Under the pieces are notes generated by a model, which saw only the letters and a list, made by a program, of their open reading frames with translations, had not been told where the DNA came from and did no database searches. The position numbers and the translations under genes are program-made. Of a stretch of DNA of 64,000 bases, positions 3,438 to 17,357 are shown one piece after another. The stretch covers positions 558,001 through 622,000 of the forward strand of contig JAKOGH010000776.1 in the NCBI GenBank assembly GCA_024811115.1, in the 5' to 3' direction. How positions within the stretch are numbered: position 1 is the stretch's first letter; each line of letters begins with the position of its first letter. The stretch is from Terana coerulea (taxonomy: Eukaryota; Basidiomycota; Agaricomycetes; Polyporales; Phanerochaetaceae).

Positions 3438-3666
3438 TCACGCCTGTCCAACAGCATCCTCTCTCTTCCATCCGCCACAAGGGTAACCGCCGCATTTGTA
3501 TTGGCGTTTGTCTACGGCCTACAAGCCGGATCTCCGGAGTTAGTATTACGTCCAGGGCCGCAGTTTGCGCGTAGGGGACACGTACCTCCGCGATGGGGCC
3601 AGCAGCAGCAGTCTGCACGAGCACAAAGGCTGCAACGAGCGCGACGAGCTTGAACGTGAGCTGCAT
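3438..3666 (-). CDS. Small secreted cysteine-peptide precursor, copy 1 (53 aa)
   Basis: Unrecognised two-exon gene. Exon 1 (3666-3586, 27 codons) encodes a clear signal peptide with a Leu/Val/Ala core ending in QTAAA. A 67-base intron (3585-3519, GTACGT..TTGTAG) precedes exon 2 (3518-3438, 26 codons plus TGA). Exon 2 reads AVDKR, then QYKCGGYPCGGW, then KREDAVGQA. The dibasic KR pairs on both sides of the 12-residue core are canonical Kex2 sites, so the likely product is a short peptide with one CX4C disulphide loop and an N-terminal Gln able to form pyroglutamate. Copy 2 at 4580-4809 has the same plan and the same intron position and phase. A TATA-like CATAAACA lies about 75 bases upstream of the ATG. 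Function unknown; processing and disulphide are inference. Confidence 0.7.
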
Positions 3667-4579
3667 GCTTTGTTCTTGGGGTGGGTAAGAAGACGCAAGG
3701 CGACGTCGTCAACGTTAGACGCTTCGCGGAACGGCTGTTTATGACACCCCCGCCGGCGCCAGTTAGCGCGACCATGTGGATTCTTAGACAAAATCTGATA
3801 CGCGGCCCAGCGCAATCAGGCGGGTTTTAGCATGCAGCATCTGACCACGCCTCAATTGTTCAGTCGGTGGGACAGGGCGGCCGCATTCGAGTTGGCAACA
3901 TCTCTCGAAAGGCCTTCTTCAGGGTTCTGACTTCTTCAGCGGTGTGCTTGTTACAGGGTCAATGATAGTAGACAACTATGCCATTATTGGCTAGGAAGCA
4001 TACCATGCTTTGTTCCAGCTTTGGGCCCTGAGAGCAACGTCGGCGACTCGGATGACGATCGCTACGAGTCTTCTCCTGCGCAATTCCACGTGAAGATGCG
4101 ATGACACGGCAATATTCAGTGATGTCATCTCCTCTGCAACCTGACATCCACACCACGGTGGAGGCCGACCACGACGAGTCTCATCCACACCCGCTCGCTC
4201 CGCTTCAGCCGCCAGTCGCAAAGTTTGAGAAAGATCACTTGGGCGTGACGGACGGTATCAGGTTCTCTGGATGGATATACGAGTGTTTCATTCATCTGGG
4301 AACGGCAGCCCGTTGTGCCGAGACGGTTTGCTTGAATGCAGTCAGGCAGAGGCCATATCTTGCGCGCAATGAGCGGCAGTTTTCAAGCTAAGTCCTTCTT
4401 CCATTCCATTGGCACGGCACAAAACAAGGTCTCTCGAAATGATAATCAGCCCAACACGCTCCGTCGACGCTCTGGTGTTCTGCAACAGCAAATGTGGCGT
4501 AAGAACGATGGAAGTGGGCAGAGTTTGTGCAAGTCTTACCACGACCAATTTCCCCAGGCCCCATATCCACGCCGCTATT
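3667..4579. other. Spacer between the two peptide genes
   Basis: About 900 bases with the promoter of copy 1 at its left end (CATAAACA on the minus strand, about 3736-3743) and the 3' untranslated part of copy 2 at its right end. I looked for a third copy of the signal peptide or of the CGG..C core here and found none. Confidence 0.5.
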
Positions 4580-4809
4580 TCAAGCCTCCTCCGCGCCGTG
4601 CTCTTTCTTCCACCATGTGCAGCGCATGCCGCCGCAGGTGCCCTGCCTCTCGGCCAGCTACAAGACAACAACGTGAGATGCAAGCAATCAACAGCGGGAC
4701 AGTCGGAAACGGGGGCCGAGACACGCACGTGGGCAGTAGGGGTGGCAGCAACGACCTGCAGTAGCTGCAGGGCGACGACAAGCAGGCCGAACTTCAGCGC
4801 GAGACGCAT
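4580..4809 (-). CDS. Small secreted cysteine-peptide precursor, copy 2 (52 aa)
   Basis: Paralogue of the gene at 3438-3666. Exon 1 (4809-4729, 27 codons) gives a signal peptide starting MRLALKFGLLVVALQLLQ and ending VVAATPTAH. The 71-base intron (4728-4658, GTGCGT..TTGTAG) sits at the same codon and phase as in copy 1. Exon 2 (4657-4580) reads LAER, QGTCGGMRCTWW, KKEHGAEEA, stop. The core matches copy 1 at Q1, C4, G5, G6, C9 and W12 with the rest freely changed, while the basic pair before the core is ER rather than KR and the one after is KK, so processing by Kex2 may be weaker or done by another protease. A minus-strand TATTATAAG lies about 80 bases upstream. Role unknown. Confidence 0.68.
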
Positions 4810-5475: not shown

Positions 5476-6344
5476 TCAGCTGAGGAGACCGCTGAGTTGC
5501 TGTCGGTATTGCTCCATAACGCGTTCGGTCTCTTCGTCTTCCAGCTTGTCCTCCAGTGACTGCGGAACACGAATGTGAGCTGCGGTACAGAGAGAGGTTG
5601 CAAGTAGACTCACCGGTGGCTCTGGCACTGCACCTGCCTGCCCAAGCTTGCCATTTGTAAGGTCAAACAACACCTTATCCACCTCTGCGTCAGCCTCCTC
5701 CTCCAGCTCTTCATCCTCCTCCACGGCAAGGGTATCGTCCATCATCTCCTCCAAAATGCCAGCCTGCAGTTGCATGATAGTGAGCCACACCGTGCTTACT
5801 TCATTGTAGGAAGGTTTCAACCGACCTTCGTCATCTCTATGCTCATTTCTCGCATGGTCTGGGTGATCTGAGGTAGCTTGATGAGCTGATTCGAGAGCTT
5901 CATGATCTCCGTGGATTTCTGCAGCGACCCGGTCACCTTGGTCATTGCTCTCACACCACCGAATGTCAGCATCGTCACACCGAGGACTCCCGGCTGCACT
6001 CACCCAGCTGCTGCGACAGCTGTGTCCCTATCGAGCCGAGCCGCGCCTTGCTCACCGACAGCCGGTCCTTCTGCTTGTTACTCCGGACGACCTCGCGCGC
6101 GAGTATCCGCGCGGACTTCACGTCGCCCTTCGTCGCCAGCTGCTTCACCGTCGTCCGCGCCTTGTTCGTCGCCGCGTCCAGCTGCGTCCCCGGGTCAGCA
6201 CGCCGCGCATCAACCTGGGCCGCCGAGACCGACCTGCCTCATCTCCCGGTCGAGCTGGCGCTGCTCCGAGCGCAGCTTCGCCTGCCACGCGCGGATGCGC
6301 TCCTCCGGCGTCGGGCCGTATATGAATCGGTTTATTGTCTGCAT
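5476..6344 (-). CDS. vps24: ESCRT-III subunit Vps24 (CHMP3)
   Basis: Endosomal ESCRT-III component that polymerises with Snf7 and Vps2 to bud vesicles into multivesicular bodies. Start at 6344 gives MQTINRFIYGPTPEERIRAW, then EQRQLDREMRQ, LDAATNKARTTVKQLATKGD, KARLGSIGTQLSQQLA, KVTGSLQKSTEIMKLSNQLI, LPQITQTMREMSIEMTKAGI, LEEMMDDTLAVEEDEELEEE and a C-terminal MIM-like segment ending QYRQQLSGLLS (stop at 5476). Basic N-terminal helices followed by an acidic C-terminal half is the expected ESCRT-III layout and the length, about 220 residues, fits. Four short introns, for example the one joining QQL to AMTKV (GTGAGT..GAG) and the one after EMTK. Confidence 0.92.
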
Positions 6345-6732: not shown

Positions 6733-8154
6733 ATGACCATCGCACGTTCACTCGTTATAATCTTCCTCTATCTGGCGGCGACGACTCTGGCAGATCTCAC
6801 GCCTACCGCTCCTGGCCCCGGAGAAGCATTCGCTGCCGGCAGCAACTGCACCATCGTGTGGGACGTCGACCAAGCAGGAACATGGACGAATGTCACCATC
6901 GGTATGGCTCGTCGGAAACGTCCGTGGACGCGGCTGACATCTTCTACTTCTAGACCTCATGTCAGGCTCGAATACCAACATGAGCTGGGTCGCGAACGTT
7001 GCTTCTTCCCTGGACGGCACAGACGCTACCCTGACGCCATTCAATTGGACGTGTCCGGAGGTCGATCCATATTCCGCCATCTACTTCTACCAGGTATGCG
7101 CTACTGTGCCTATGGTGGTATAGTGGTACTCATGACTCTTGCTAGTTTACCAACAACGGTCAGACCGGTGATGCAAAGTGGACGACACGATTTACCGTAC
7201 GTGTACTGTTTATGCTTCATGTGCTGTCATGGCTCACCTTGTGGCCGTAGATCATGTCACCATCTGGAGAATATATGCCACCCGAGAACACTCAGCAACC
7301 AAATGGCGACACGATCCCGTGGGGTACAGGTGCCTTGGTTTCCAACGACGCGGACGCGGACACGAGCGATGCAGACCCGACGTTGGACGACACGGACTCG
7401 GACACGAGTGACGCAGACCCGACGTTTGACGACACCGGTTCGGACACGGAGTCATCCACAGCTGTCGATCAGTCCAATATCCAGCATGCTGAACAAATCG
7501 AAGTCAGGCACTCCGAGGACTCATCTGGCGATGGCGACGATTCTGGGTCTGAGGACGACAGAGATGAAAAGGGCTCCGACAACGGTAATGGCGATGACGG
7601 CGACGATGGCGACGACGACGGTGAAGACGACAGCGACGACAAGGACAGCGGCGGTTCGTACTCATCGTCCAGCGTGACTGCAGAGGGAACGCCGAAGGCT
7701 GGCGCTTCCATCCAGCTCAAGCAAGGTTAAAGCCACCGCCTCTGCAGATCCTTCGGATGTCAAGACAAGCTCGAAGGCGAAAGCAGTCGCATCGTCGACC
7801 AAGACCAAGAGCTCTTCCTCCTCTGCCGACGACACCGCGCCTACCTCGTCCGCAAGCCAGGACTCGGGTGACGCTGCGACTGAGGCCGCGGCGCCGACGG
7901 CCGACCTTCCAGCATCCGCAAAGCCCAAGACCCACTCTTCGTCTGTGCCTGGTGCTACTCTGTCTGGGATGTCGAAGACAACATCGCACGCTGTCGTGGC
8001 CGCTGCCTCGACCAACACTTGTTCTTGCGGCCCTTCCGGATACGACTCGCAGGACGGGTTGGCGAAGCTCATGAGCGGCGGTGCTGATATCGCGAAGATG
8101 TCTTTCTGGGTTCAGCTGCTGTCTTTGGTTCTTGCGGTTCTCGCCTTGTACTAG
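6733..8154 (+). CDS. Kre9/Knh1-like N-terminal domain protein, Ser/Asp-rich, probably GPI-anchored
   Basis: Secreted wall-type protein. ATG at 6733 opens a signal peptide (MTIARSLVIIFLYLAATTLA), then the Kre9/Knh1 N-terminal domain: TPTAPGPGEAFAAGSNCTIVW, TWTNVTI, SGSNTNMSWVANVASSLDGT, FNWTCPEVDPYSAIYFYQ, FTNNGQTGDAKWTTRF. Exons are joined by three short introns near 6903-6953, 7095-7145 and 7199-7251. A long acidic, Asp/Ser-rich stalk follows with a 42-base tandem duplication at about 7360-7445. The last part (7731-8154) is Ser/Thr/Ala-rich and ends in a hydrophobic tail FWVQLLSLVLAVLALY typical of a GPI signal. The stalk frame stops at 7730 while the tail lies in another frame, so either one base is wrong between about 7690 and 7730 or the product ends early. 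Confidence 0.75.
7360..7446 (+). repeat. 42-base tandem duplication in the acidic stalk
   Basis: Two adjacent near-identical units encoding DTSDADPTLDDTDS and DTSDADPTFDDTGS. Differences are few and mostly synonymous, so the duplication is fairly recent. Confidence 0.75.
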
Positions 8155-15772: not shown

Positions 15773-17357
15773 ATGGCACCGCAGCGCGCACAATCGATCA
15801 CGTCCAAGGAGGACGCCGTCGACCTCGAGTATGCGAAGGGGGCACGCTGCTAAGGCCCGCGGCGACGAGGCGTTCGGCGGTACGGAGGAGCGACAGAGGA
15901 TGGAGAAGAAGTTGCTGCGAAAGCTCGACGCACGGATGTCCATCCTCATCATCATTTACATCCTGAACTACGTACGTTTTATGTGCCTCAGCTACTGGTT
16001 GCACCGGGCTGATTGCTTGGATGTGCTCAGATTGACAGGAATAATGCAAGTGCTGCACGTCTCCGCGGGTTTGAAGCCGACCTACACCTGGTGAAGCAAC
16101 AATTCCCCACGATTCTCAGTATCCTTTACGTCGGCTACATCCTTATGCAGATTCCTTCGTAAGTCCTAATCCATCCCGAGTGCTTGTGCTGTCCTCACCT
16201 CTGCATAGAAACATGCTGCTCAACCACACCGGGAGGCCCTCGATATACCTACCATGCTGCATGATGATCTGGGGCACCATTTCCTGCCTTACTGGTGTTA
16301 CCACGAACTTCGTCGGGGCGCGCTCCTAACGCGATTCTTCCTTGGCTTTGTCGAAGCTGCCTTCTTCCCCGGTGCCCTCTTCCTGCTCTCCAAGTGGTAC
16401 ACTCGCAGGGAGCTCGGCACGCGCACCGCCCTGCTCTCATGCGGATCCCTGATCAGCAACGCATTCGGCTCGCTCATCGCGAGCGGTATTCTCGACGGCA
16501 TGGAGGGCAAGCTCGGCCACTCCGCATGGCGTTGGCTCTTCTACATTGAAGGCGCTCTCACCATCTTTGCTGCTGTCTGCGCCATCTTCATCCTGCCTGA
16601 TTTCCCCGCGACGTCGCACCGTTGGCTTTCGCCGCTCGAGGTGAAGCTCGCTGAACGCCGCTTGGAAGAGGACGCCGGTGTTGGCGACGAGGCCCAGACG
16701 GAGAGCGGCAGTCAGTTCCATGGTTTGCTCCAGGCTGTCACCGACTGGAAGGTCTGGTGGCTCGCACTCGCGCTCACAAGCATGGTCATCTTCCTCTCCT
16801 TCAACGCCTTCTTCCCGACACTTTCCGCGACCTTGGGCTACAACCGCACCGTCACGCTCCTCCTGTGCGCGCCGCCCTGGGTGTTCGCGACGCTCGTCGC
16901 CTTCGCCGTCACGCGGCACTCGGACAAGGTCGGCGACCGCTTCTGGCACATCGCCGCGCCGCTCGCGCTCGGCATCGTCGGGTGCGTGATCGCGATGTCG
17001 ACGATGAACACCGCCGCGCGCTACGTCGCGCTCTTCCTCCTCGCGCAGTCGTACGCGGCCTTCATCACGTTCCTCGCGTGGATCAGCAACTCGATCCCCC
17101 GCCCGCCGTCGAAGCGCGCCGTCGCGCTCGCGCTCATCAACGCGTTCTCGCAGCTCGGCAACGTCTCGGGCTCATACATCTGGCCGACGACCTGGGGCCC
17201 GAGCTACCGCTACTCGTACGGCATTTGCATCGCGTGCAATGGGCTCGCGATTGTCATGTGCTTTATGTTCAAGAAGCATCTGGAGAGCTTGAACAGGCAG
17301 GCAGAGGAGCGGGAGCGGGAGCAGGGGGCACCCAAGGGTTTCCGCTATATTTCATGA
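15773..17357 (+). CDS. MFS transporter, ACS family, copy 2
   Basis: Permease of the same family as the copies at 9.6 and 38.9 kb. Readable blocks: KKLLRKLDARMSILIIIYIL, IDRNNASAARLRGFEADLHL, ILYVGYILMQIPSNMLLNHT, LLTRFFLGFVEAAFFPGALF, AWRWLFYIEGALTIFAAV, LPDFPATSHRWLSPLEVKL, LLLCAPPWVFATLVAF, IAMSTMNTAARYVALF, SNSIPRPPSKRAVALALINA, YIWPTTWGPSYRYSYG, ending FRYIS (stop 17357). Introns at about 15972-16030 and 16159-16209; unlike the other copies most of the 3' part is one uninterrupted exon. Frame is broken twice: one extra G in the run at 15838-15842 and two extra bases in GCGCGC at 16318-16323. Start at 15773 assumes the first correction; 15831 is the alternative. The beta-mannosidase follows on the same strand. 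Confidence 0.83.

Follow-up and report, generated by a model that had tools for sequence, protein, structure and literature searches.

Two short predicted genes (A and B) of Terana coerulea raise the question whether they encode secreted precursors of small processed peptides and which function such peptides might have. Both are located on the minus strand of the analysed DNA stretch of 64,000 nucleotides (referred to as the window, on contig C604), are arranged head-to-tail and consist of two exons each. Gene B (4809-4580) is the upstream one, gene A (3666-3438) follows it in the same orientation after 913 bases, and the pair is situated between a PAF-acetylhydrolase-like and a Snf7-like gene. 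The features of the locus are:

1167 to 1853 (fragment): platelet-activating-factor acetylhydrolase-like gene, 17.9 bits, under the Pfam cut-off of 20
3438 to 3666, minus strand: gene A, whole coding region for a predicted 53-aa prepro-peptide composed of MQLTFKLVALVAAFVLVQTAAA, GPIAEAVDKR, QYKCGGYPCGGW and KREDAVGQA (gene model, homology to B, second copy on contig C62)
3586 to 3666, minus strand: gene A exon 1, 81 nt, putative signal peptide (residues 1-22, -3,-1 rule) and start of the spacer
3519 to 3585, minus strand: gene A predicted intron, 67 nt, GTACGT...TACTAAC...TTGTAG
3438 to 3518, minus strand: gene A exon 2, 81 nt including the stop, with AVDKR, core, KR, acidic tail and stop
3468 to 3503, minus strand: core peptide A, QYKCGGYPCGGW, from a pattern match
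4580 to 4809, minus strand: gene B, whole coding region for a predicted 52-aa prepro-peptide composed of MRLALKFGLLVVALQLLQVVAA, TPTAHLAER, QGTCGGMRCTWW and KKEHGAEEA (gene model, second copy on contig C62)
4729 to 4809, minus strand: gene B exon 1, 81 nt, putative signal peptide (residues 1-22) and start of the spacer
4658 to 4728, minus strand: gene B predicted intron, 71 nt, GTGCGT...CTCAC...TTGTAG
4580 to 4657, minus strand: gene B exon 2, 78 nt including the stop, with LAER (no dibasic site), core, KK, acidic tail and stop
4610 to 4645, minus strand: core peptide B, QGTCGGMRCTWW, from a pattern match
5479 to 6027 (fragment): Snf7-like gene, 27.0 bits, slightly under the cut-off of 27.3

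The GTACGT and GTGCGT starts, the branch-point-like sequences TACTAAC and CTCAC and the TTGTAG ends are read as fungal intron signals. The spliced precursors, MQLTFKLVALVAAFVLVQTAAAGPIAEAVDKRQYKCGGYPCGGWKREDAVGQA (A) and MRLALKFGLLVVALQLLQVVAATPTAHLAERQGTCGGMRCTWWKKEHGAEEA (B), share 42% identity. The intron is positioned after codon 27 in phase 0 in both, in agreement with the original prediction of a single intron at the same codon and phase. The claimed conservation of leader length and exon layout is seen in exon 1, which comprises 81 nt in both genes; the spacer (AVDKR and LAER) differs by one residue. Each precursor contains one core of the form Q-x2-C-G-G-x2-C-x2-W, in which 6 of 12 residues are common to A and B, namely Q1, C4, G5, G6, C9 and W12, exactly those that had been named. 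The cores carry few charges (K in A, R in B), and the precursors terminate with GQA (A) and EEA (B). In both genes Gln directly follows Arg and Trp directly precedes two basic residues. The proposed flanking by basic pairs, i.e. Kex2 sites, was found in A (DKR before the core, KR after it) but not in B, where the core is preceded by E-R and followed by K-K, so that release by Kex2 is well supported for A only.

The exon 2 peptides of A and B were reciprocal best non-self matches among 127,870 six-frame 22-mers of the window (BLOSUM62 score 55, z 8.0), with runner-up scores of 26 for A and 44 for B. The exon 1 peptides (27 residues) were likewise reciprocal best throughout the six-frame translation of the window (score 47, against 28 and 26 for the highest unrelated matches), and Q..CGG..C..W occurs exactly twice in this translation. 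Intron lengths correspond to 1 and 2 modulo 3, which would place the homologous exon 2 sequences in different frames if they were unspliced; the core is present in neither of the unspliced frames. In exon 2, 8, 11 and 17 of 25 codons differ at positions 1, 2 and 3, respectively. The hydrophobicity of the leaders was equalled or exceeded by a fraction of only 0.003 (A) and 0.006 (B) of the 925 ATG-starts in the window, i.e. both are in the top 1%, and both are among the 13 of 925 that pass the full signal-peptide rule, a home-made combination of hydrophobicity and the -3,-1 rule. At the sequence level, A and B are confirmed as a genuine pair of paralogous short precursor genes. The sequence shows the paralogy, the exon layout, a leader resembling a signal peptide, the core, the basic residues and the tail, and exon homology, leaders and gene models support the claim that two short secreted precursors, paralogous to each other and alike in exon layout, each carry a single core. 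The genes are tiny and easily overlooked, as had been stated with regard to ordinary gene callers; the retained-intron frames are, however, open (99 aa in A, 155 aa in B), so that a gene caller might call A and B wrongly instead of missing them.

Second copies of both genes are located on contig C62 (13,540 bases, 8,041 of them compared), which aligns to the region with 99.1% identity over 4,352 and 97.9% over 2,506 bases and would most simply represent the haplotype of the other nucleus. Both genes are intact on this contig and both core peptides are unchanged. Gene A shows a single base difference (I25T), gene B eight, which comprise V11A, A49V, three synonymous (R39, K45, E46) and three intronic changes, with the terminal AG of the intron being kept. 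The amino-acid changes, small in number, are restricted to leader, spacer and tail. Where the presumed signal peptides end, at 3576-3600 and 4720-4743 on the minus strand, the first residues of the spacers are X-P/X-A dipeptides, namely GP-IA-EA in gene A and TP-TA in gene B; these pairs resemble Ste13 substrates, but are located across the basic site from the core, and the pattern survives I25T. On C62, the copies of the two genes are separated by a 1.2-kb insertion (L041:4344-5541) that the window does not have. Its ends are imperfect inverted CCAGTG...CACTGG, and a copy of GGCTGAAGC on either side of it points to a target duplication of 9 bases. We take the insertion to be possibly a Mutator-like non-autonomous element. 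Its first 132 bases gave 19 genome matches at E <= 0.001, several of them at 99-100%, which argues for recent movement.

The pair had been described as the signature of a diversifying family, which was not borne out. Over the 52 aligned codons of the whole gene, pS (0.65) exceeds pN (0.36; Fisher p 0.003 with rounded counts), corresponding to a dS of 1.49 and a dN of 0.50. Values for pS and pN were 0.50 and 0.35 in exon 1, 0.85 and 0.37 in exon 2 and 0.79 and 0.38 in the core. With a pN of the core close to that of exon 1 and identical cores on C62, diversifying selection on the core was rejected, the comparison of one paralogue pair being a weak test either way.

Further members of the family were sought at DNA and protein level. 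A strict DNA pattern for CGG..C..W gave 19 matches (8 forward, 11 reverse) in the 48.4-Mb genome, compared to 10 (3 and 7) for the reversed-pattern control. Four of the 19 are genes A and B and their C62 copies, and none of the remaining 15 carries a Gln at the third position ahead of the first Cys. Genome protein searches with gene A (E <= 0.001; 6 candidates scored) and gene B (E <= 1; 4 candidates scored) retrieved only A, B and the C62 copies. In the protein database, no candidate was found with gene A as query, and the two candidates obtained with the four-sequence alignment did not reach E <= 10. Relatives are covered by this database, as seen from a transporter fragment (window 16209-17354) with 91% identity to Phanerochaete sordida and 88% to Phlebiopsis gigantea; by this one neighbour protein, the genome would be placed near Phanerochaete/Phlebiopsis. 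Since the protein search requires shared 5-residue words and has low power for a short variable peptide, the database result is no proof of absence. No Pfam-A family was matched at E <= 1 by either precursor, a 21-residue piece of A gave one meaningless match in the PDB (E 5.6), and no relative was among the six pattern matches in viral_contigs. A description of the Q..CGG..C..W core was not found in the literature searched (articles exclusive of supplements). A and B appear to resemble a fungal pheromone in layout but match no catalogued family searched.

A signal peptide and a kexin-flanked core are shared with those Kex2-processed repeat proteins (KEPs) of Basidiomycota that have an alpha-pheromone-like layout and are described in PMC9769878, e.g. 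KEP 490115 of Coprinopsis (QYKAPSW, QMRPPSW) and KEP 1091723 of Pleurotus (SGVAADW). As in A and B, the cores of KEP 490115 start with Gln and end with Trp; QYKAPSW is reported there together with its pyro-Gln form, and Trp is the last residue in many relatives from basidiomycetes (PMC9769878). KEPs contain several cores and Ste13 dipeptides after the basic pair, whereas A and B have one core with two cysteines and Gln straight after Arg. With respect to the KEP features, an N-terminal signal peptide is predicted for both leaders by the home-made rule, and dibasic flanks are present on both sides in A (KR/KR), while B has ER before and KK after the core. KEP identity was rejected because A and B have one core per precursor and no repeats, which the KEP definition as given in PMC7329392 and PMC6339444 demands. 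The predicted alpha-pheromone-like KEP QSWGGCGGRGTPCW of Trichosporon oleaginosus (PMC6339444), also a basidiomycete, shares the N-terminal Gln, CGG, a second Cys and the C-terminal Trp with A and B. It differs in its repeated cores, its Ste13 signature, a gap of six instead of four residues between the cysteines and the position of Trp, which directly follows the second Cys in QSWGGCGGRGTPCW and is three residues further on in A and B. The likeness to the peptides of PMC6339444 and PMC9769878 is one of layout; homology is not claimed.

Alpha-pheromones of Ascomycota (WCTWRGQPCW in Fusarium oxysporum, PMC7289986) are, like A and B, short and secreted, with two cysteines, a C-terminal Trp and a kexin-cut precursor. 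They differ in the C2-C9 spacing (six residues between the cysteines, four in A and B), in repeated cores and in perception by Ste2. Ste13 dipeptides (XA/XP) between Kex2 site and core are absent from A and B, in which Gln follows Arg. The STE2 profile gave one match in the genome (L062, C883:17860-18153; a membrane-protein-like frame with one stop) with 19.7 bits against a cut-off of 27.2, so that no receptor candidate over the cut-off was obtained, in a search that had no positive control (0 of 14 control genomes matched, introns split matches); the tool used did find STE3, with 23 matches. A and B were thus not shown to be alpha-type pheromones, given the different Cys spacing, the missing Ste13 dipeptides beside the core and the STE2 result. 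A CaaX mating pheromone was rejected on the basis of the GQA and EEA ends and the absence of STE3 matches from C604 and C62.

Qsp1 of Cryptococcus neoformans is a Trp-ending peptide without cysteines. It resembles what is proposed for A and B in that a basidiomycete secretes a pro-peptide from which a short signal arises extracellularly. The route is a different one: according to PMC7537855, cleavage is by Pqp1, a serine protease of the cell wall, and the product is taken up again through Opt1.

On a slight balance of probability, A and B form a tandem of paralogous prepro-peptide genes with a single core each in a wood-decay fungus of the phanerochaetoid group, and their products are released in a Kex2/Kex1-type manner and serve as extracellular signal peptides. 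The precursors would enter the secretory pathway via the signal peptide and would be cut by a kexin behind the basic residues on either side of the core, which in A are K-R in both places. In B, cuts would occur after K-K and at the single Arg, possibly through a different kexin paralogue or a yapsin that cleaves at monobasic sites. Coprinopsis precursors produced in Pichia were seen to be cut after single Arg residues (PMC9769878), and monobasic-cutting yapsins exist according to a title cited in PMC2515848; release of core B is therefore possible, but not to be assumed. A Kex1-type carboxypeptidase might trim the basic residues to leave a C-terminal Trp, the N-terminal Gln might cyclise to pyro-Gln and a disulphide may form within the CX4C loop. 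The latter should not be presumed, since the reduced form of the Fusarium alpha-pheromone is active and the oxidised one inactive (PMC7289986). The calculated [M+H]+ of the cores with pyro-Gln and disulphide is 1299.492 (A) and 1366.513 (B), that of the linear reduced forms 1318.534 and 1385.555. The most likely role of the 12-mers would be that of extracellular signals to the fungus itself or to its community, like the alpha-pheromone-like Trp-ending mushroom peptides; they would be read by a receptor or an importer other than a recognisable STE2. Signalling is preferred because of the likeness to Gln-/Trp-capped mushroom peptides and because the defining core residues are kept between paralogues and contigs. 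Against it count that B has no canonical Kex2 site before the core, that one core per precursor would be a poor route to much peptide, that the sole STE2-profile match, under its cut-off, provides no receptor candidate and that six Coprinopsis kep knock-outs had no phenotype in axenic culture (PMC9769878), which favours an ecological over a self-signalling role.

The main rival to signalling is defence against, or competition with, other organisms, in which the released CX4C peptides would target bacteria, fungi or nematodes near the mycelium, A and B being two variants of one weapon. Short, secreted, Trp-containing tandem paralogues with two cysteines would fit such a role, and a function in the biotic environment is what the authors of PMC9769878 infer from the missing knock-out phenotypes. 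With pS exceeding pN between the paralogues, core and leader diverging alike, identical cores on both contigs and little charge in the cores, however, defence is a possible but not a likely function.

Alternatively, the basic sites might be unused and the mature product might be a secreted peptide of 30 residues (residue 23 to the end) with an effector-like or cell-wall function. This would be in line with B, in which no dibasic site precedes the core and K-K follows it, and with spacer and tail lengths conserved as well as that of the core. Such a product is nevertheless unlikely in view of K-R on both sides of the core in A and of the Gln after Arg and the Trp before two basic residues, which are kept in both genes and are explained by cutting. 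Slightly less probable still is a modified natural product (RiPP), in which tailoring enzymes, for instance UstYa (DUF3328) proteins, would introduce further cyclisation of the core. A signal peptide and a kexin-flanked core correspond to the dikaritin layout, and the genome holds 22 UstYa-profile matches, 21 of them over the cut-off. None of the 22 is located on C604 or C62, for which reason a UstYa-linked RiPP was rejected; moreover, no tailoring-enzyme family was found among the 12 window ORFs (of 75 selected) and 8 upstream ORFs scanned, and dikaritin precursors are repetitive as described in PMC7329392. That A and B are chance open frames in an intergenic stretch, as the missing database homologues and Pfam matches might suggest, was rejected as extremely improbable, being largely refuted by paralogy with its reciprocal best exon matches, identical intron position, codon-position bias and intact second copies.

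A and B could be the first members seen of single-core, two-cysteine polypore peptide hormones (pyro-Gln...CGG..C..Trp) with a signalling role analogous to that of ascomycete alpha-pheromones and read without STE2, a generalisation we put forward as doubtful. Such a family would have been overlooked so far because surveys sought repeats and the genes are tiny and intron-split; the surveys in PMC6339444 and PMC7329392, as described there, define their targets by repeats, so that single-core precursors fall outside. Secreted peptide signals of basidiomycetes are poorly known, and should related fungi turn out to share the layout, fungal annotations would lack an entire class of short, split genes. 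The cores are small enough for direct synthesis and testing.

Several observations concern other loci. The UstYa matches are found on C577, C652, C582, C651 and other contigs, some paired on one contig, and RiPP clusters may possibly be encoded there. STE3 was matched on C231, C526, C529, C530 and C577; the matches on C530 form a cluster over about 18 kb, which is a candidate pheromone-receptor mating locus. Within the window, open frames at 6733-8154 (plus strand), taken by themselves, point to a likely secreted Asp-/Ser-rich protein with a hydrophobic, GPI-anchor-like C-terminus.
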